Shown in pieces: positions 2 through 28,612 of a DNA stretch of 49,143 nt. The stretch's first letter is position 1; each line of letters begins with the position of its first letter. The DNA is from a virus: positions 1 through 49,143 of IMG/VR virus record IMGVR_UViG_3300035698_015048; one strand, 5' to 3'. A program made the position numbers and the translations under genes. Under the pieces are notes generated by a model. The model was not told where the DNA came from, did not search any database, and saw nothing but the letters and a program-made list of their open reading frames with translations.

Positions 2-118
2 TGCTTCGCGCTGCATATCATCCCAGGTAAGGCGATTGTCTCGACCAATCCGGATTCGGTAGATATCAAAGATGGGAAGTTGGTTGGTGTGACGTGGGGC
101 ACCATTGACGAGAAGTAG
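2..118 (+). CDS. 3' end of an unidentified protein (partial)
   Basis: An open frame enters from the left edge and ends at a TAG at 116-118, giving the last 38 residues (ending GVTWGTIDEK). Its codons are GC-richer than those of the phage genes that follow, and in this it resembles the island at 14.2-15.7 kb. No domain can be named from so short a piece. The promoter that follows starts immediately after the stop, so this gene ends a transcription unit or is read through. Confidence 0.55.
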   Translation, partial: CFALHIIPGKAIVSTNPDSVDIKDGKLVGVTWGTIDEK

Positions 119-147
119 TTTACAAAATCTGAGTTTAAAATTATAAT
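119..147 (+). promoter_or_regulatory. Sigma70-type promoter
   Basis: TTTACA at 119-124 and TATAAT at 142-147 are separated by exactly 17 bases. The -35 differs from consensus at one position. The start would fall near 153-155, at the beginning of the structured leader at 151-242. It would drive the membrane protein and metabolic genes downstream. Confidence 0.7.
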
Positions 148-150
148 TCC

Positions 151-242
151 TGTGTTGCTCGTCGTGGGGGCAACACAATCGAACTCATCTACTCCGTAAA
201 GGGGCCTTCCTAGCGACCGACCACGACCCGGTTGCTAGGGGC
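151..242 (+). ncRNA. Structured leader with two potentially kissing hairpins
   Basis: Hairpin 1 pairs 151-158 with 170-177 (8 bp) and has an 11-base loop at 159-169. Hairpin 2 pairs 209-218 with 230-239 (one G-U), extends by 204-206 with 240-242 across a TT bulge, and has an 11-base loop at 219-229. Bases 161-167 (GTCGTGG) of the first loop are perfectly complementary to 221-227 (CCACGAC) of the second, each flanked by two unpaired loop bases. A small stem 192-195/201-204 lies between. The 3' arm of hairpin 2 contains AGGGG, the only Shine-Dalgarno-like sequence for the ATG at 248. It may be a translational control element; it matches no RNA class I recognise. Confidence 0.6.
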
Positions 243-262
243 ATTTTATGAAAGGAACATAC

Positions 263-616
263 ATGAGCTTTTGGGAAAAAATTAAGTATCTAATTGTTGG
301 ATTCTACAAGCATTTCACTATTACTATATTTACTAATTTGTGGCTATTTTTTACCTTTGCCACGATTAGTCAGCTTGGAAGAAATGAAAAGTTTTTGGAA
401 TATTTTGATGATATTAGCACAGAACATATCAGAACAGGAAAATTAGTAATAAGAAAGGTTACTGATGGATATGACGTGTATGAATTGACTGATGACAACA
501 TTGAGAAACTGGTTAAACGAAACGAATGGGAAATTGATCCTGACTTCTTAGATTTAATGCGCAGCTTTTTTATGGTATGTGCTAAAGTCAGAAAAGAGAT
601 TGAAAAAAATGTCTGA
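263..616 (+). CDS. Small membrane protein of unknown function
   Basis: The product is 117 residues if it starts at the ATG at 263, which has AAAGGA seven bases upstream. An in-frame ATG at 248 would add five residues, but its ribosome site is buried in the leader hairpin. Residues about 10-35 form one hydrophobic segment, so the protein is probably an inner-membrane protein with a charged C-terminal domain. It is the first gene behind the structured leader. The next small frame starts inside its last codons. No family is recognised. Confidence 0.7.
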   Translation: MSFWEKIKYLIVGFYKHFTITIFTNLWLFFTFATISQLGRNEKFLEYFDDISTEHIRTGKLVIRKVTDGYDVYELTDDNIEKLVKRNEWEIDPDFLDLMRSFFMVCAKVRKEIEKNV

Positions 617-1194: not shown

Positions 1195-3100
1195 AAAGGA
1201 AAAGATCAAAAAACTGGAATCTGAGATTAAACGCCATATCGAATTGTATGAGCAAGGTATACCAGAAATTGAAGATGCAGAATATGACGGATTAATTATA
1301 GGGTTAAAAATTCTTGATCCTCAGAATAGTGTATTCAATATCATCGGACATAAAGCAAATGATGCAGATGTCAAGCATACAACACCAATGTTATCTTTTG
1401 AAAAGGTACACACCGTTGAAGATTGTACCAAATGGATCAAAAAGAAACAGAAACGATTTATTGCTACACCTAAAATTGATGGATTTTCTGTCGATTTAAT
1501 GTACAAAGATGGCAAACTAAACCAGATTAGTTCAAGAGGCAATGGTGAATTTGGTAAAGACTATACCCATTTCATCAATCACTTGTCAGATACGTTTGTA
1601 ACAGAACTTCCCATTGAAATGTCCTGTCATGTTAGAGGTGAAGCCAATGTAAGTAGCAAAAATTTCGATATCCTCAATAGTAAGGAATGGAACGATTTCT
1701 CAAATAGACGTAACGCTTGTCCTGGGATTTTCGGCAGAAAAAATAGTAATTTAGAAGATGCATTCTATGTTGACTTCTTTGCTTATAATATTTTGTTTGA
1801 CGGATTCGAAACTAAACATGAGAAAATGAAATATTTGGAAAGTCTTGGGTTTAAAACTGTGGATTACACAGAAGTTACCGAACCAACCCAATCAGACATT
1901 AAACCTATTATCAAAAAATGGACTGATGAAAGAGACGACTTGGATTATATGATTGATGGTATTGTATTTGAGATTGATGACCTTGCCATACAGAAGAGTC
2001 TTGGTGCAACTGATCATCACCCTAGATACGCTGTTGCTTATAAATTCCAGAGTGAGTCTGCGACAACTACACTCAAAGACATAGAGTGGAAAACCAGCAG
2101 GTTGGGTTCTGTTAAGGGTAAGGCTATTTTAGAGCCAGTAAACATTGGAAATGTAACAGTTCAGAGAGCAACGGTGCATAACGCAGACTTTGTCATGGGA
2201 TATCGAGATGGCATTATGACTGAACCTCCTCTAGCTTTGGGTTCATCTATCATTATTAGTCGAAGTGGAGATGTTATTCCTAAAATTGAAAAAGTTATTG
2301 ATACTTTTGGAAATAATATACCATATCTTCCGATGCAATGCCCCTCATGTCAGACTAAACTAGTTAAGAATGGACCTGATCTGTTTTGTTCTAATGAGGA
2401 TTGTCCTGCCAGAACTTTTAGATCTATTCTTCATTTTGTACAAACATTAGAGATCGAAGATTTGAGCGATAAGCGATTGGAAGAGCTTGGTATTGAAAGT
2501 GTCTCAGAATTGTTCCAGCTATCCTCAGATGACATCAAGGTCAGAATGGACAGATGTGGGGATAAGCTGGCTGACAAGTTGTACAAGAATATTCAGGACA
2601 AAATCAAAGTTCCTTTTGCAACTTTTCTACGATCTTTAAATGTTAAGGGATTAGGAAAAACTGTCAGTAAAAAATTGGCAAAACATTACAATTCTTTGAA
2701 CTCTTTTATTGATGATGCAATAAATGGTAACGCTCCTCTGATAGAAGGTATTGGTCCAGTGATCTGGAAAAATATAGAGGTTGCTTTTGTTTCTGAAGGA
2801 AAATCAGAAACAGCTTTTGGTCTTTTAGATGTTGGAGTAGAAATTTTTCATGAAGAAAAAAAAGAAGTTACAGATGGTTCTATTCAAGGGAAAACTTTCG
2901 TAATTACTGGTACTCTTTCTAAGCCCAGAAAAGATTTTGCACAGATCATCGAAAACAATGGTGGAGTAGTATCTGGATCTATTAGTAAGAAAACCGATTA
3001 CTTGCTGGCTGGTGAATCAGCAGGGTCTAAATTGACTAAAGCTGAAAAACTTGAAGTAAAGATCTTGACAGAGGAAGAATTTCAGGCTATAATAAAATAA
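1172..3100 (+). CDS. ligA: NAD-dependent DNA ligase
   Basis: The 642-residue product has the full LigA layout. The adenylation motif KIDG places the nucleophilic lysine at residue 101. An OB fold follows, then a four-cysteine zinc finger (Cys390, 393, 406, 411), helix-hairpin-helix repeats (about 430-555) and a C-terminal BRCT domain (about 573-642, starting GKTFVITGTL). It seals nicks in DNA using NAD, in replication and repair. It is slightly shorter than typical bacterial LigA (about 670). The start overlaps the macro gene; no better start is seen downstream. Most phages carry an ATP-type ligase, so the complete bacterial form with BRCT is notable. Confidence 0.95.
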   Translation: MTLKAVNKKEKIKKLESEIKRHIELYEQGIPEIEDAEYDGLIIGLKILDPQNSVFNIIGHKANDADVKHTTPMLSFEKVHTVEDCTKWIKKKQKRFIATPKIDGFSVDLMYKDGKLNQISSRGNGEFGKDYTHFINHLSDTFVTELPIEMSCHVRGEANVSSKNFDILNSKEWNDFSNRRNACPGIFGRKNSNLEDAFYVDFFAYNILFDGFETKHEKMKYLESLGFKTVDYTEVTEPTQSDIKPIIKKWTDERDDLDYMIDGIVFEIDDLAIQKSLGATDHHPRYAVAYKFQSESATTTLKDIEWKTSRLGSVKGKAILEPVNIGNVTVQRATVHNADFVMGYRDGIMTEPPLALGSSIIISRSGDVIPKIEKVIDTFGNNIPYLPMQCPSCQTKLVKNGPDLFCSNEDCPARTFRSILHFVQTLEIEDLSDKRLEELGIESVSELFQLSSDDIKVRMDRCGDKLADKLYKNIQDKIKVPFATFLRSLNVKGLGKTVSKKLAKHYNSLNSFIDDAINGNAPLIEGIGPVIWKNIEVAFVSEGKSETAFGLLDVGVEIFHEEKKEVTDGSIQGKTFVITGTLSKPRKDFAQIIENNGGVVSGSISKKTDYLLAGESAGSKLTKAEKLEVKILTEEEFQAIIK

Positions 3101-7697: not shown

Positions 7698-7726
7698 TTG
7701 ACAAAATGACAAATTTTAGCTATAAT
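7698..7726 (+). promoter_or_regulatory. Consensus sigma70 promoter
   Basis: TTGACA at 7698-7703 and TATAAT at 7721-7726 are both perfect and separated by 17 bases. Transcription would begin near 7733, at the base of the leader hairpins upstream of the gene at 7870. An early promoter using host RNA polymerase is the obvious reading. Confidence 0.88.
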
Positions 7727-7734
7727 ACAATAGG

Positions 7735-7832
7735 ACAACACTTTGCCTGTGATGCACAGCTTAGTATTGTTACGCCTGAACGTGGTACTTCTGGCTAATC
7801 AACTATTACCAAAATAATAGTTCTGATTAGCC
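7735..7832 (+). ncRNA. Structured leader, attenuator-like
   Basis: The transcript from the 7698 promoter starts with a hairpin (7735-7742 with 7763-7770, one mismatch, enclosing 7747-7751/7755-7759). Further on, 7793-7808 pairs with 7815-7832 as a 16-bp stem with a two-base bulge. The 3' end of that stem (7829-7832) is also part of the terminator stem at 7829-7845, so the two cannot form together. This mutually exclusive arrangement between promoter and gene is what attenuators look like. No known riboswitch class is recognised. It could equally be a stand-alone small RNA ending at the terminator. Confidence 0.6.
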
Positions 7833-7853
7833 GCGATAAGCGGCTTTAATTTT
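7829..7853 (+). terminator. Intrinsic terminator in the leader
   Basis: A 6-bp GC-rich stem (7829-7834 with 7840-7845, AGCCGC/GCGGCT) has a five-base loop and is followed by TTAATTTT. It lies 17 bases before the ATG at 7870, so it would control read-through into that gene. Confidence 0.65.
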
Positions 7854-10764: not shown

Positions 10765-10807
10765 GCGGGAGTAGCCGAATGGCATAGGCGTCTGATTTAG
10801 GATCAGA
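10765..10807 (+). pseudogene. 5' half of a class II tRNA-Leu(TAG), 3' half missing
   Basis: The sequence starts like tRNA-Leu: GCGGGAG, TA, D-stem GCC/GGC with a GG-containing loop, and a perfect anticodon stem TCTGA/TCAGA around TTTAGGA (anticodon TAG). After that no T-arm and no acceptor partner (CTCCCGC) appear before the next tRNA 70 bases on. It therefore cannot fold as a tRNA. It looks like a decayed gene, or a deliberate half-tRNA. Confidence 0.7.
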
Positions 10808-10876
10808 AATTTGGAGTTTCAAAAAGCAATATATGCGATATAGTTAAAAGAAGAAGTTGGAAACATATATAGAAAT

Positions 10877-10952: not shown

Positions 10953-10973
10953 AATAAATATTATGGCGTCGTA

Positions 10974-11054
10974 GACGACTAAAGTAGATCGGTTGAGCCG
11001 TAAACCCAAAGGGCGAAAGCCTCCGAGTGGGTGTGATTCCCTCAGGCGTCACCA
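10974..11054 (+). tRNA. Degenerate tRNA-like element ending in CCA
   Basis: The 3' end resembles a tRNA: a T-arm-like stem around GTGTGATT with a bulge, then AGGCGTC, discriminator A and CCA. GACGACT at 10974-10980 could pair with AGGCGTC with one mismatch. I cannot find a convincing anticodon arm. The middle contains a GGC-GAAA-GCC hairpin (11012-11021). It is either a tRNA too diverged for me to fold or a remnant. Confidence 0.3.
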
Positions 11055-11067
11055 GAATTAAATAAAT

Positions 11068-11170: not shown

Positions 11171-11257
11171 AGAAGGGTGACAGAGTGATAATGTGCTGGG
11201 TTGCTAACTCAAGGCCGTCCATTGGATGCGTAGGTTTGATCCCTACTCCTTCTGCCA
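11171..11257 (+). tRNA. tRNA-Ser(GCT)
   Basis: A class II tRNA: acceptor AGAAGGG/TCCTTCT, anticodon loop TTGCTAA (anticodon GCT), variable arm with GTCC/GGAT stem, T-arm GTAGG-TTTGATC-CCTAC, discriminator G and encoded CCA. Confidence 0.88.
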
Positions 11258-11804: not shown

Positions 11805-11838
11805 AGAGTGGGGCATCTATCTTCAGATGCCCCACTCT
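11805..11838 (+). other. Perfect 14-bp hairpin
   Basis: AGAGTGGGGCATCT at 11805-11818 is perfectly complementary to 11825-11838 with a six-base loop. No T-run follows, so it is not a standard intrinsic terminator. It fills the gap between two genes, ending 14 bases before the next ATG. It may protect the 3' end of the upstream messenger, slow read-through or serve as a protein or processing site. Confidence 0.75.
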
Positions 11839-12388: not shown

Positions 12389-12474
12389 ATCCTTGCGCAA
12401 CAAGGATCGTCTGGCTTAAAGCGCCGCCCTGTCACGGCGGAGATCATTGGTTCAAATCCAAGTACCCCCTGCCA
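12389..12474 (+). pseudogene. tRNA-Asp(GTC) remnant with disrupted acceptor
   Basis: The anticodon arm is intact (CCGCC-CTGTCAC-GGCGG, anticodon GTC), as are the T-loop TTCAAAT, the aspartate discriminator G and the CCA at 12472-12474. The T-stem carries an extra G. The 3' acceptor ACCCCCT has no AGGGGGT partner. Instead the 5' region CAAGGAT (12401-12407) pairs perfectly with ATCCTTG (12389-12395). The gene is probably dead as a tRNA. Confidence 0.7.
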
Positions 12475-14199: not shown

Positions 14200-14634
14200 A
14201 TGAATGATTGGGCTGATAAACTTGACGATATTGTCCACGATTTTAGTCTGTTATGTGACGATTTACACGGGCCTGGAACTGAAATAGAGGAGCAGGAATG
14301 TTTGAGGCTTAACCATGACCTTTCCGCCCTGGCTTCCGAGATCCGGGCCAACGCAGGAGAGGTAGAGACTCTCTGGACGATAATCAAGGCCGAAGTGAAG
14401 AAAACAGATCCCGAATGGGTGGGCGAACATTGTAAGCGGTGTGGCCGTGCGATCTATACCGTTTGGGGCACCGACCCAGAAACATGGGCCGACGTGGTGG
14501 GGGAAGAAATATGCCTTTGCCTCGACTGTTTTGCAAAAATAGCTAGCGAGAAGGGGATATGCGTGCCGTCCCAATATGTAACTCTTGACTTGCCATTGCT
14601 GCCAATTAATCCAAGGACAACCGAAAATGACTGA
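14200..14634 (+). CDS. Paralogous island protein 1, with zinc ribbon
   Basis: The 144-residue protein starts MNDWADKLDDIV and contains DLSALASEIRANAGEV, a segment shared with the gene at 15332. The second half has HCKRCGRAIYTVW and CLCLDCFAKIA, a four-cysteine zinc ribbon. The gene turns GC-rich after about 65 bases, unlike its left neighbours. It overlaps the next start by eight bases. The N-terminal helix-bundle unit seems to be a module fused to different C-terminal domains in this island. Confidence 0.6.
   Translation: MNDWADKLDDIVHDFSLLCDDLHGPGTEIEEQECLRLNHDLSALASEIRANAGEVETLWTIIKAEVKKTDPEWVGEHCKRCGRAIYTVWGTDPETWADVVGEEICLCLDCFAKIASEKGICVPSQYVTLDLPLLPINPRTTEND
14325..14342 (+). repeat. 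18-bp direct repeat, copy 1
   Basis: CGCCCTGGCTTCCGAGAT here is identical to 15436-15453. Both encode the ALASEI/ALASEIR segment of the paralogous island proteins and mark a recent duplication or shared origin. Confidence 0.85.
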
Positions 14635-15040
14635 ATCACTGGCGGCGAGGGTTGGGAAGGTAGTTGATAAATTCCAACGAGCCCTTGACGAATTTTACCC
14701 AGACGACATTGACGAAGAATACCACGGCGAGGTTAGTTGCTGGTCGTCTGTGCTGACTGAACTCCGCGCAATAGCCCAGGAGCTTCGCGGGGTTGGGTGG
14801 GTGAAGGTTGAGGATGGGTGTGCGATGCCGGAGGACTCACGAACTGTCCAAATTGCATTCACGAACTTGGGAGAAGATAGGCACATTGTTACCCAAGGAT
14901 ACTATTCTTCCAAAATGGGGTGATTTAACGAGATAGGAGCCCCTTTCATGGATGCCGAGAGGTTCGGTTCGGAGAGGGAAACCTTAACCCACTGGCGCGA
15001 ACTCCCCGAACCACCGGAAAGCGAGGCGGGAGATGATTGA
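14627..15040 (+). pseudogene. DUF551-like gene interrupted by an in-frame TGA
   Basis: The frame from ATG 14627 reads an N-terminal helical part, then GWVKVEDGCAMPEDSRTVQIAF, the start of a DUF551 domain (usually WIxVxDRLPExxxxVL). It stops at TGA 14921-14923. The same frame continues without a further stop to 15040 and encodes THWRELPEPPE, the invariant end of DUF551 (THWxPLPEPP). A single TGG-to-TGA change would explain it; read-through is possible. The ATG at 14948 could restart the tail. DUF551 proteins are common in phages; function unknown. Confidence 0.72.
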
Positions 15041-15335
15041 GCTTAAAAATTGCCCTTTCTGTGGTATGCCGTTTCACTCAGAAAGCAGCGACGGTTACAC
15101 GCTCTACAAATGCGGACTTGAATACAACAACGCTCTGGGGATTTCCAGATACGACAACTCGGCTTGTGAGAAAATCAAGGCGCTACAAAAAAAACTGGAA
15201 GAACTCAGAAAGCGCGGGGAAAGGGTGCTGGCTTTGAAGATTGTCGAGGGGTGCATAGCTGATGCGTCTTACAATTTGGGATGCAAGGACACAATACAAG
15301 AATGCCAGCACATACTGAGAGGGGAGAAACCATGA
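15033..15335 (+). CDS. Lar-like zinc finger protein
   Basis: The 100-residue protein begins MIELKNCPFCGMPFHSES, with a second cysteine (YKCGL) 20 residues on. This is the pattern of the Lar restriction-alleviation family and similar phage CPFCG proteins. A coiled-coil helix (KIKALQKKLEELRKRGERV) follows. Lar of the Rac prophage relieves type I restriction; most relatives are untested. It overlaps the DUF551 tail by eight bases and the next gene by four, in the GC-rich island. Confidence 0.6.
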   Translation: MIELKNCPFCGMPFHSESSDGYTLYKCGLEYNNALGISRYDNSACEKIKALQKKLEELRKRGERVLALKIVEGCIADASYNLGCKDTIQECQHILRGEKP

Positions 15336-15646
15336 ACGATTGGGCTAATAGGTTGGATGAGATAGGAGACTTGGTACAGACACAGCAAAACCTAATCAAA
15401 AATCCGATCATCGTCGAAGCAGAGAAGCGACTCCGCGCCCTGGCTTCCGAGATTCGCACCCTGGCCAAGCCTGCCGTGTGGACCAAGGATGTGCCCGGTG
15501 TTGAGGGCTGGTATGAAGTTATTTACAAGGACGTGGGGGATACGTCGTTTCGAGATGCGTATTATTGGGATGGTGCTTGCTGGTGTTACAATTCGGCGTG
15601 TGAGGTAGCCGAAGATTTGGAAGTGATTGGCATTGTGAGGTTTTGA
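15332..15646 (+). CDS. Paralogous island protein 2
   Basis: The 104-residue product starts MNDWANRLDEIGDLV and contains RLRALASEIRTLAK, matching the gene at 14200. Its C-terminal half differs: VWTKDVPGVEGWYEVIYKD and AYYWDGACW, a short tryptophan-rich beta domain like those attached to DUF551-type modules. The ATG overlaps the previous stop (ATGA). A 14-codon frame (15646-15690) links it by overlaps to the lipoprotein gene. Role unknown. Confidence 0.65.
   Translation: MNDWANRLDEIGDLVQTQQNLIKNPIIVEAEKRLRALASEIRTLAKPAVWTKDVPGVEGWYEVIYKDVGDTSFRDAYYWDGACWCYNSACEVAEDLEVIGIVRF
15436..15453 (+). repeat. 18-bp direct repeat, copy 2
   Basis: Identical to 14325-14342, inside the matching segment of the second paralogous island gene. 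Confidence 0.85.
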
Positions 15647-15686
15647 TGCCTGGACCTTTCGACCTGGAACCGAAAGGAAAAGATGA

Positions 15687-25367: not shown

Positions 25368-26061
25368 CGCAAGAACTAGGGTTATTGCTCTTATAGCCTT
25401 GATTACAATGGCATCAATAGGTATACCTCATGTTTTCGATAACGGTCCAGAACGCATAGTTGCGATGGTGCTGTTGGGAGTACTCTCATTTTTATTGATA
25501 AACAAATTCCTATATGGGCCAATTAATAAAATAGCTAAGATGATAGACAATAGGTCTAACAATATTTTTGAACGAAATTATCAAATAAAAAAGATCAGCT
25601 TTGACCAAATGGATCAACTCGTAGTTTCTGTTAACGGGTTGATTTCTAATTTTATAGGCATGGATACCTACAAATCGATACAGATGATACACTATTATTC
25701 CATGATGACCTCCCCTAAAATAGTTAGCAACATAATGATAATTACTAAAACCAGCAATTATTCGAATGAATTAGATGTAGTTAATTGCAAAAAAGACATA
25801 AAAAACATAATCAAAATAATCAGAGAAAAGATATATAAGAGAAATGAAGTATTAGTTGCTTCTTGGATATTGGATATTTGCAGAAAAATAGAAGACAATA
25901 TGATGAATAGTTTCTCAACTGAGATCAGTAATTATATGGTCACAAGCGATAAAACGAATGATGAAAAAAAATTGCACCTTACAAAGAAATTAGAATTTTA
26001 TGTCAAGGAATACTATATTAGAGTCAATGAGGAAATAAAAAGACACTTCGATGCTAATTAA
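25357..26061 (+). CDS. Membrane protein of unknown function
   Basis: The 234-residue product starts at the ATG at 25357, 11 bases inside the holin gene. Two transmembrane segments (about 8-25 and 35-52) are followed by a long soluble helical domain rich in lysine and isoleucine. Its place between holin and terminase would suit a lysis regulator such as an antiholin or inner-membrane spanin, but no sequence feature proves it. It overlaps the terminase start by 11 bases. Confidence 0.6.
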   Translation: MVINARTRVIALIALITMASIGIPHVFDNGPERIVAMVLLGVLSFLLINKFLYGPINKIAKMIDNRSNNIFERNYQIKKISFDQMDQLVVSVNGLISNFIGMDTYKSIQMIHYYSMMTSPKIVSNIMIITKTSNYSNELDVVNCKKDIKNIIKIIREKIYKRNEVLVASWILDICRKIEDNMMNSFSTEISNYMVTSDKTNDEKKLHLTKKLEFYVKEYYIRVNEEIKRHFDAN

Positions 26062-28612
26062 ATCTCAAGAACCAACAGACATAGAAATAAAAGAATATTT
26101 TGAATGGTATGAGAATAGGCCAGTAGATGTAATCTATGATATTCTAGGTCAAACGTTATGGTGGGGTCAAAGACAGGTTGTCAGGAATTCATTTAGTGCT
26201 AGAAATCTTATGCTTATTTGGAATCGTGGATCTGGAAAAACTTTTATGGATGCACTAATAGCCGTAACAAGGGCAATAATGTTACCAGGTGAAAGAATAG
26301 TTTGCTCCTCATCAAGTTTTAGACAGTCTAAATTTATTTTCCAAGAAGTGGAAAAGATGCATGCAAATTCTGTTAATCTTCAACAGTGTTGTTCCTCTGA
26401 TCCGAGTAGGATGCCTGAAAATTGTATTCTGAAATTCAAGAATGGCTCCGTTATTTATGCAGTTCCATTGGGAGATGGCTGTTTAAGTGGGGATACACTT
26501 GTTACTTATGGTGATAGAATTGCAGATATGGATGATATAGGAAAAACAGTTTGGGGAAATGGAAAATTTAGAAAAACTGATGAACATTATTATAATGGAT
26601 TCAAAAAAACAAAGATAGTCAAAACTGGAAAAAAATATTCATTTGAATCAACTTTAAACCATAAAATGAAAATTTTAAGAGGAAATGGTATAAAATGGGT
26701 TAGAGCAGATGAGATGGTTATTGGTGATAAAATTTTAATAGACATAACAGAGAGATGGCATGAAGGTAATTTTGAATGTACAGAAGATCAGGCTTATGCG
26801 CTTGGGATGTGCCTAGATCATAAATGTATTCCAAAAACTATAATGTCTTCTTCTAAAAAGAATATGGCATCTTGCATAAGTGGAATTTTTGATTCCGATG
26901 GTACTTTACAGGTGAGCAACAGAAAAGGCGGAACAGCAATTTCTATCTCCTTAACAAGTACTAGCACGAAACTGGTTAAGCAGGTTCAGTTTATTTTGTT
27001 GCATTTTGGAATTGTTTCCACTTTGGTAAGTAGACAGAGAAGCGGGAAAAACTATGAATGTCATGATTTGATAATAACTGGTAAAAATGTTGAAAAATTT
27101 CACGAGAAAATAGGGTTTAAATTAAAAAGAAAATACGACAAAATTGAACAGGCTTTAAAGCTAAAAATAAGAGACAAATCGTATGTAGATGATATAAAAG
27201 AAACAGCAAATAAAGACATTTTTTATGATGAAATAGTTTCGATTGAAGATGGAGAATGTCATACTTATGATATGCATGTTCCAAGTGGACATGAATATTG
27301 TGCAAATGGATTTTTTAGCCATAATTCAAAGATTCGTGGCCTTAGAGCGGATACACTAATCGTTGATGAAGCTGCATTTGTTCCTGAGAATATTATTAAT
27401 GACGTTCTGTTGCCTACCATGAGTACTTCCAAGAACCCGATGGAAAATGTAGAACGCAAAAAAATGATTAAAAGAATGAAGTCAGAAGGCTTAGACACTA
27501 CCGAAATAGAGGAATTGGATGGACAAAGATGTACTATATTCTCTTCTACTGCATATTTTAGATTTAATCATTTATTTAAAACGTATAGTGATTGGAAGGG
27601 TAGACAAGAAGATGGAGATAGTAGATATAGAGTACATTCATTTAATTTCTTAGATCCACCAGAGGGCTTCTTGGATTTAGAAGAAATTGAGAAACAGATG
27701 GACAATCAGACTGAAATTAAGTTCATGATGGAAAATCTCAGTCTCTTTCCTAAAGATTCAAATAATTTCTATCCTGCTTCCCTTATAAATAAAATCAAAT
27801 CAAAAAACTGTAAAGTTATGTTGAAAGGGACAGAAAAAGGTATATATATCATAGGGGTTGACCCGGCCCGTTCCTCAGATAACTGCACAATTGCAGTATT
27901 CAAAGTGGAAGGTAGAGTTAAAAAACTAGTATTCTTGAAAGCTTTCAACAATAAGAGTTTCCCCTATGTAGCTGCTTATCTTAGAATGATGGTTGCTTTT
28001 TTTGATCCGGAAACTTTATCCATCGATAAGGGAGCTGGTGGTGGTGGAATGGCCCTTTTTGATGAGTTGAATCGTGAGGTTACTCATGACGATTTGGATA
28101 GAATGGTTGGAGAAGACAAGGGAGATATAGACCTTTCCGTGATAAAGCATTACGGACCAATTAGTGAAATAGAAGATACACCAAGTTCAGATTCATTGGT
28201 AAGCAATGCCAATAAATCAAAAAAGAGAATAATACAACTAGTTAACTTTACTCCTGAATGGATCAGTTCTGCTAATTTCTCTTTGAAATCTTCTATGACC
28301 AGCGAACAACCAACAGTCTTAATCCCTGAAATATTGGATGATAGCTGTTATGAAGACGATATGAACGCTAGTAAATACGACGATACTCTAGAAGAAATAC
28401 ATGAATTAGAGTCAGAACTTCAGAATATACAATTGAAGCAGAGTCGTGGTGGTAATTCGTTGCAGTTCGTGGCAGAAAATAGAGGAATTAAACGAGATAG
28501 ATATACTGCGTTTCTTATAGGTGCGCAAGCGTGTATGGAATATATTAAATTATCCGACAACAAGGAAGAGGCAGTTAAAACAGCTTCTCTAGCCGATGGT
28601 TGGTGGATGTAA
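26051..28612 (+). CDS. Terminase large subunit containing an intein
   Basis: The 853-codon gene encodes a DNA-packaging motor of 571 residues after removal of a 282-residue intein. The ATPase domain has a Walker A-like WNRGSGKT (57-64), Walker B LIVDEA (436-441 in the precursor) and a coupling SSTA motif. The nuclease domain starts with IYIIGVDPARSSDN, where Asp604 is the first metal ligand. The intein sits between GDG and SKIRG, just before Walker B. The motor translocates DNA into the prohead and cuts it. It is preceded by a membrane protein gene and followed by the portal gene. Confidence 0.93.
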   Translation: MLIKSQEPTDIEIKEYFEWYENRPVDVIYDILGQTLWWGQRQVVRNSFSARNLMLIWNRGSGKTFMDALIAVTRAIMLPGERIVCSSSSFRQSKFIFQEVEKMHANSVNLQQCCSSDPSRMPENCILKFKNGSVIYAVPLGDGCLSGDTLVTYGDRIADMDDIGKTVWGNGKFRKTDEHYYNGFKKTKIVKTGKKYSFESTLNHKMKILRGNGIKWVRADEMVIGDKILIDITERWHEGNFECTEDQAYALGMCLDHKCIPKTIMSSSKKNMASCISGIFDSDGTLQVSNRKGGTAISISLTSTSTKLVKQVQFILLHFGIVSTLVSRQRSGKNYECHDLIITGKNVEKFHEKIGFKLKRKYDKIEQALKLKIRDKSYVDDIKETANKDIFYDEIVSIEDGECHTYDMHVPSGHEYCANGFFSHNSKIRGLRADTLIVDEAAFVPENIINDVLLPTMSTSKNPMENVERKKMIKRMKSEGLDTTEIEELDGQRCTIFSSTAYFRFNHLFKTYSDWKGRQEDGDSRYRVHSFNFLDPPEGFLDLEEIEKQMDNQTEIKFMMENLSLFPKDSNNFYPASLINKIKSKNCKVMLKGTEKGIYIIGVDPARSSDNCTIAVFKVEGRVKKLVFLKAFNNKSFPYVAAYLRMMVAFFDPETLSIDKGAGGGGMALFDELNREVTHDDLDRMVGEDKGDIDLSVIKHYGPISEIEDTPSSDSLVSNANKSKKRIIQLVNFTPEWISSANFSLKSSMTSEQPTVLIPEILDDSCYEDDMNASKYDDTLEEIHELESELQNIQLKQSRGGNSLQFVAENRGIKRDRYTAFLIGAQACMEYIKLSDNKEEAVKTASLADGWWM
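26480..27325 (+). mobile_element. Intein with reduced LAGLIDADG endonuclease domain
   Basis: The element covers precursor residues 144-425. It begins with Cys1 (CLSGDTLVTYGD), has block B STLNHKMKI with its Thr-x-x-His, and ends with block F/G ECHTYDMHVPSGHEYCANGFFSHN followed by Ser+1, all needed for protein splicing. The second LAGLIDADG motif is clear (CISGIFDSDGTL, about 275-286). The first is cut short (YALGMCLDHK) and runs at once into the segment normally found just before the second motif. Most of the first endonuclease half therefore seems deleted; splicing should be intact and homing probably lost. Confidence 0.9.

Follow-up and report, generated by a model that had tools for sequence, protein, structure and literature searches.

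A putative GC-rich mRNA leader with two complementary hairpin loops upstream of an apparent orphan gene in a phage sequence

Between the stop codon of an upstream gene (position 118) and a gene for a 117-residue protein starting at 263, the phage sequence studied here carries two GC-rich hairpins whose loops are perfectly complementary over seven bases, and the region is plausibly a leader RNA with an intramolecular kissing loop. The window, i.e. the whole stretch of DNA that was analysed, comprises positions 1 to 49,143 (49,143 bases) of IMG/VR virus record IMGVR_UViG_3300035698_015048. It is AT-rich (GC content ~35%) and carries nearly all of its sizeable genes on the plus strand. The capsid protein has its nearest counterparts in jumbo phages, among them Bacillus phage G (31% identity), and for this reason the record is probably a piece of a larger phage genome. 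The upstream gene (2-118) has no family or phage match, and the product of the downstream gene (263-616), which has an apparent N-terminal hydrophobic stretch, appears from its sequence to be an orphan protein. The leader has a GC content of 60%, compared with 31% in the adjoining gene; apart from the gene block at 14-15.5 kb, the window has just one other GC peak, which lies among the tRNA genes. Sequence and statistics support the hairpins, the loop complementarity and the GC enrichment, while the odds that the loops actually dock are judged to be about even. The features of the region are collected in Table 1.

Table 1. Features of the putative leader and its flanking genes (positions in the window).
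Feature	Position	Strand	Description	Basis
Upstream gene, 3' end	2..118	+	Cut by contig start; ends ...GKLVGVTWGTIDEK*	Open frame, TAG at 116-118
Promoter-like element	119..147	+	TTTACA-N17-TATAAT, 11/12 to consensus	Consensus match
Hairpin 1	151..177	+	10 pairs, loop GUCGUGG 161-167, -14.5 kcal/mol	Predicted fold
Loop 1 kissing partner (putative)	161..167	+	GUCGUGG	Complementarity, shuffles
Linker	178..203	+	26 bases	Predicted fold
Hairpin 2	204..242	+	Pairs 204-206/240-242 and 209-219/229-239, -21.8 kcal/mol	Predicted fold
Loop 2 kissing partner (putative)	221..227	+	CCACGAC	Complementarity, shuffles
Shine-Dalgarno for ATG 263	250..257	+	GAAAGGAA, 5-base spacing	Anti-Shine-Dalgarno duplex -5.9 kcal/mol
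Downstream gene	263..616	+	117 aa (122 aa if from ATG 248)	Open reading frame

The original prediction placed hairpins at 151-177 and 204-242, and both are found at these coordinates, as is the perfect seven-base Watson-Crick complementarity that it described between 161-167 (GUCGUGG) and 221-227 (CCACGAC). Its loops of 11 bases each did not survive folding: the minimum-energy structure closes C160-G168, U159.G169 and G219-C229, leaving loops of seven and nine bases, and the larger loops are an alternative drawing with fewer pairs. The loop of hairpin 2 is thus ACCACGACC at 220-228, and its stem includes AGGGG at 237-241. The duplex between the two loops has a calculated energy of -10.5 to -13.2 kcal/mol.

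The leader fold has a z-score of -4.0, a value matched by none of 200 shuffles. Shuffling the letters of the loops gives a complementary run of at least seven bases between them with a probability of 0.03, and letters at genome composition give one with a probability of 0.002; two folded loops complementary over at least seven bases arose in one of 20,000 dinucleotide shuffles of 151-262, and no other neighbouring large-loop hairpins in the 49 kb, on either strand, share more than four complementary bases. With a window-wide correction for ~900 non-overlapping stretches of leader size on two strands, the chance of one such loop match is estimated at roughly 5%. The structural observation is confirmed and is better than chance. 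That two strong hairpins merely happen to carry complementary GC-rich loops, spotted by reading the whole window, is an unlikely explanation; it draws on the P value of 0.03 obtained when only the G/C-rich letters of the loops are shuffled, on the window-wide estimate and on the absence of conservation support (searches of IMG/VR, the GTDB genomes and the GenBank phages turned up no relatives), but it has to contend with the central position of the complementary register in both loops, with the uniqueness of the pair in 49 kb and with its rarity in the local null.

A tertiary-folded RNA rather than chance pairing had been proposed for this region. The statistics uphold a structured leader with a plausible intramolecular kissing loop; evolution adds no support because the homologue search came up empty. 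No relatives of the protein encoded at 263 were found in the IMG/VR viral contigs or in the GTDB genomes, and the GenBank phages gave sub-threshold matches only. Homologues were also sought for the ligase, capsid, macro-domain protein and terminase: the capsid scan returned one 9.8-kb relative at 40%, the macro-domain scan ten contigs and the terminase scan none. The leader was missing from all eleven viral records reached via the capsid and macro-domain scans, the best match to the 263 reading frame among them being one marginal stretch (E = 0.001), and an Rfam search of 1-400 gave no family at E <= 10. This lack of relatives is not counted against the structure, given the orphan status of the phage in the collections searched. 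Loop-motif scans of IMG/VR yielded 20 and 4 matches, none with both hairpins, and these were rejected as leader relatives; the first scan's matches come from contigs of high GC content (59-72%) and are read as chance matches. A hidden coding frame at 139-210 in the leader, which has neither a start codon nor a family match, was likewise discarded. An assembly error at the leader may also be considered, because it begins 150 bases from the contig end.

The promoter said to lie directly upstream, TTTACA-N17-TATAAT, is present at 119-147. Chance alone should produce about 1.2 sites of this quality on the window's plus strand, and the element is without the GCTATAAT context of the window's five other strong plus-strand promoters; it is favoured because it is placed right after a stop codon. 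The RNA is predicted to start at about G152/G154. A start at 153-155 had been thought liable to trim the outermost pairs of hairpin 1. The hairpin is fully formed in the ensemble (P = 1.0) for an RNA starting at G152 or G154; its probability falls to 0.92 with a start at 155 and to 0.77 with one at 156, and a start at 158 abolishes it. The inverted repeats might instead constitute a DNA operator, the palindrome over the predicted start binding a repressor. In keeping with this, TGTGTTGC-N11-GCAACACA is a perfect 8-base dyad at +1 and the half-site GCAACACA occurs six times in the window versus 1.1 expected, a count that none of 100 shuffles reaches. However, the window holds no second palindromic copy, even with three mismatches, the four other half-sites being single; the G.U pair of hairpin 2 (215-233) is a mismatch in a DNA palindrome; and the complementarity between the two hairpins is left unexplained, so that we regard an operator as quite unlikely. 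The 8-mer GCAACACA/TGTGTTGC, located at 151-177, 4161, 4406, 18777 and 40242, is possibly a protein-binding half-site in its own right, a candidate suggested by its recurrence.

Control of ATG 248 through burial of its AGGGG in hairpin 2, as originally envisaged, agrees with the fold in so far as 237-241 are paired; this burial need not matter because ATG 263 has an equally strong Shine-Dalgarno sequence, GAAAGGAA (-5.9 versus -5.6 kcal/mol for AGGGG), which falls outside the hairpin. A second pairing had been overlooked in the original prediction. Linker bases 179-201 are predicted to pair with 244-274, over the Shine-Dalgarno sequence and AUG at 263, with UCC 193-195 opposite GGA 254-256 and CUCAU 184-188 opposite AUGAG 263-267. 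For the ribosome-binding site (RBS), the calculated accessibility averages 0.49 +/- 0.09 when the linker is shuffled, compared with 0.18 for the real one (P 0.01); under a wider RBS definition, the real linker gives 0.32-0.35 versus 0.49-0.53 (P 0.03-0.04). This test is one of two, and its outcome varies with the positions chosen. The energy gained by the pairing (~-5.9 kcal/mol) is no better than with shuffled linkers (P 0.62), and an accessibility of 0.35 is inside the range of the window's other genes (0.16-0.81). When the linker is forced open, the accessibility of GGA/AUG rises to ~0.5. Folding calculations thus hint, weakly, that the linker may hide the 263 ribosome site.

These elements can be assembled into a translation switch controlled by loop docking, with a logic like that of the guanidine-II riboswitch and without its ACGR loops, which we put forward as our preferred reading, albeit a tentative one that falls short of being probable. 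The mRNA of the gene at 263 would carry 151-262 as a structured 5' leader, and the RNA from ~G152/G154 would fold into two GC-rich hairpins joined by the 26-base linker. Seven Watson-Crick pairs would dock loop 1 (GUCGUGG) onto loop 2 (CCACGAC); the linker would then span the docked stems and be kept off the ribosome site, leaving AAGGA and AUG at 263 free (ON). In the undocked RNA, the linker would pair with the Shine-Dalgarno sequence and AUG at 263 and reduce translation (OFF). The balance might be shifted by magnesium, temperature or a protein, or by nothing at all, in which case the leader would be a constitutive setting. Geometry suggests that the two states exclude each other. With 179-201 paired to 244-274, ~35 pairs, a distance of roughly 100 A, would separate hairpin 1 from loop 2, and with about four free bases the hairpin could not contact it; with the loops docked, the 26-base linker would have to bridge ~70 A, and at most the innermost pairs 196-201/244-249 could form. 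An RNA with docked loops could therefore not have its 263 site covered, and vice versa, which predicts that docking is the ON state. On paper, the loop duplex (-10.5 kcal/mol, loop-strain costs excluded) outweighs the linker pairing (-5.9 kcal/mol). The linker-RBS pairing is a prediction of the folding model; docking in vivo, mutual exclusion and the direction of control are what we infer from the arrangement as a whole. Several points go against the switch: the searches yielded no homologue in which the loops might covary, the promoter is a single 11/12 match that is unlike the other strong promoters, the leader lies at a contig end, and a start at 156 or later would count against it because hairpin 1 would be weakened or lost.

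Simpler roles for the hairpins were also weighed; among the ordinary alternatives to the switch, stabilizing hairpins, an operator palindrome and coincidence are all regarded as credible. The hairpins could be stabilizers of the 5' end or spacers, protecting against RNases and keeping the 263 site clear with no switching, and the loop complementarity would then merely rigidify the leader or do nothing. Such a role, which we consider doubtful, is in line with the position of hairpin 1 at the predicted 5' end, with hairpin 2 stopping just before the Shine-Dalgarno sequence, with the ordinary energy of the linker pairing and with the occurrence of another strong hairpin, free of a T-run, just before a Shine-Dalgarno sequence at 11805-11838; by itself, however, it does not predict seven complementary loop bases, seen in one of 20,000 shuffles. 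Hairpin 2, with its strong GC stem followed by ATTTTATG (five T in eight), might also serve as an intrinsic terminator or attenuator, acting on the upstream gene or on the leader itself. Yet six to eight T in eight is the rule at most of the phage's clear terminators, the T-run here is short as well as interrupted, and the loop exceeds the typical length; we consider termination very unlikely.

The switch reading calls for comparison with known kissing-loop RNAs. The guanidine-II riboswitch consists of two GC-rich hairpins separated by a linker of 7-40 bases, with a possible anti-Shine-Dalgarno sequence, and its loop-loop contact has been proposed to free the ribosome site (PMC7544219, PMC9094411, PMC9300104). 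The leader resembles it in its two GC-rich hairpins and in its 26-base linker, which is within the 7-40 base range (PMC7544219), and its linker could play the anti-Shine-Dalgarno part through UCC:GGA and CUCAU:AUGAG, at the P values given above (0.01-0.04 for accessibility, 0.62 for energy). The contact differs, being two C-G pairs in tetraloops in guanidine-II and a predicted seven Watson-Crick pairs between loops of seven and nine bases in the leader. Loop 1, GUCGUGG, is without ACGR, while loop 2, ACCACGACC, has ACGA but within a nine-base loop, and the Rfam model of guanidine-II (mini-ykkC) has no match at E <= 10 in 1-400. Because loop 1 has no ACGR and Rfam gives no match, the leader, judged by its sequence, is not a member of the guanidine-II family. 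No guanidine-related gene is apparent, and there is no reason to assume a ligand for the leader.

A kissing contact of two hairpin loops in an mRNA leader, as proposed here, also occurs in purine riboswitch aptamers, but the present RNA is without a closing P1 helix or three-way junction and has no Rfam match to them. In the ColE1 RNAI/RNAII system, seven-base loops pair fully with complementary loops. Those RNAs are antisense partners acting in trans, whereas the leader loops belong to the same RNA and strand and are not antisense to each other beyond the loops. The phi29 pRNA, a separate packaging RNA, is another phage RNA in which two hairpin loops complement each other (PMC7357161). Its molecules contact one another on the packaging motor through four pairs, whereas the leader would form seven within an mRNA, lies directly upstream of a coding gene and has no Rfam match. 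Loop pairing between leader molecules, giving RNA dimers or chains as in pRNA, is conceivable in that two distinct complementary loops on one RNA allow head-to-tail assembly (pRNA review, PMC7357161). We consider it extremely unlikely: the 26-base linker readily permits an intramolecular contact, which should be favoured at cellular concentrations, and a packaging role for an mRNA leader is unsupported by this analysis.

Most known cases of mRNA leaders controlled by kissing loops are ligand riboswitches, for which it has been debated whether the loops dock at all in the full-length RNA (PMC7544219, PMC9300104). The leader is a single orphan sequence, at present a candidate, and matters only if docking is shown; it would then allow a clean test of whether docking can switch translation without obvious need of a ligand. 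It seems decidedly improbable that phage translational switches of a new class are represented here, in which an intramolecular kissing loop of seven pairs, not a small ligand pocket, draws the linker away from the start region and docking, set by ions, temperature or a protein, turns the gene on.

Several other features of the window were recorded. Five near-perfect sigma-70 promoters on the plus strand, at 3065, 5168, 7698, 10499 and 13735, share a GCTATAAT/GCTACAAT context. That at 7698 is a perfect TTGACA-N17-TATAAT followed by a folded, largely non-coding stretch (7698-7850, plus strand; z = -3.4) that ends in a terminator at 7829-7845. This stretch is a candidate for a phage small RNA of ~115 bases and has no Rfam counterpart; pairing of the leader with this candidate at 7733 has P ~0.05. 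The window's strongest hairpin, of 14 pairs and without a T-run, lies at 11805-11838 (plus strand), directly before a Shine-Dalgarno sequence and start codon. Among the tRNA genes, all on the plus strand, 11171-11254 is recognized as a tRNA by Rfam (41 bits) and missed by ARAGORN, and 10973-11056 is a GC-rich tRNA-like stretch between tRNA genes with a CACCA end that neither ARAGORN nor Rfam recognizes. A 5' part resembling tRNA-Leu without its 3' half (10765-10830) and a tRNA 3' part with a GTC anticodon stem (12412-12462; 27 bits, below the Rfam cut-off) are apparently truncated or rearranged tRNA genes. The block of small genes at 14200-15650 (plus strand) has ~47% GC versus 35% for the genome, two of its genes share an N-terminal MNDWA and an ALASEIR motif, and it is likely to be an acquired cassette. 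The large terminase gene (26051-28612, plus strand) is split by an intein that includes a LAGLIDADG endonuclease domain.
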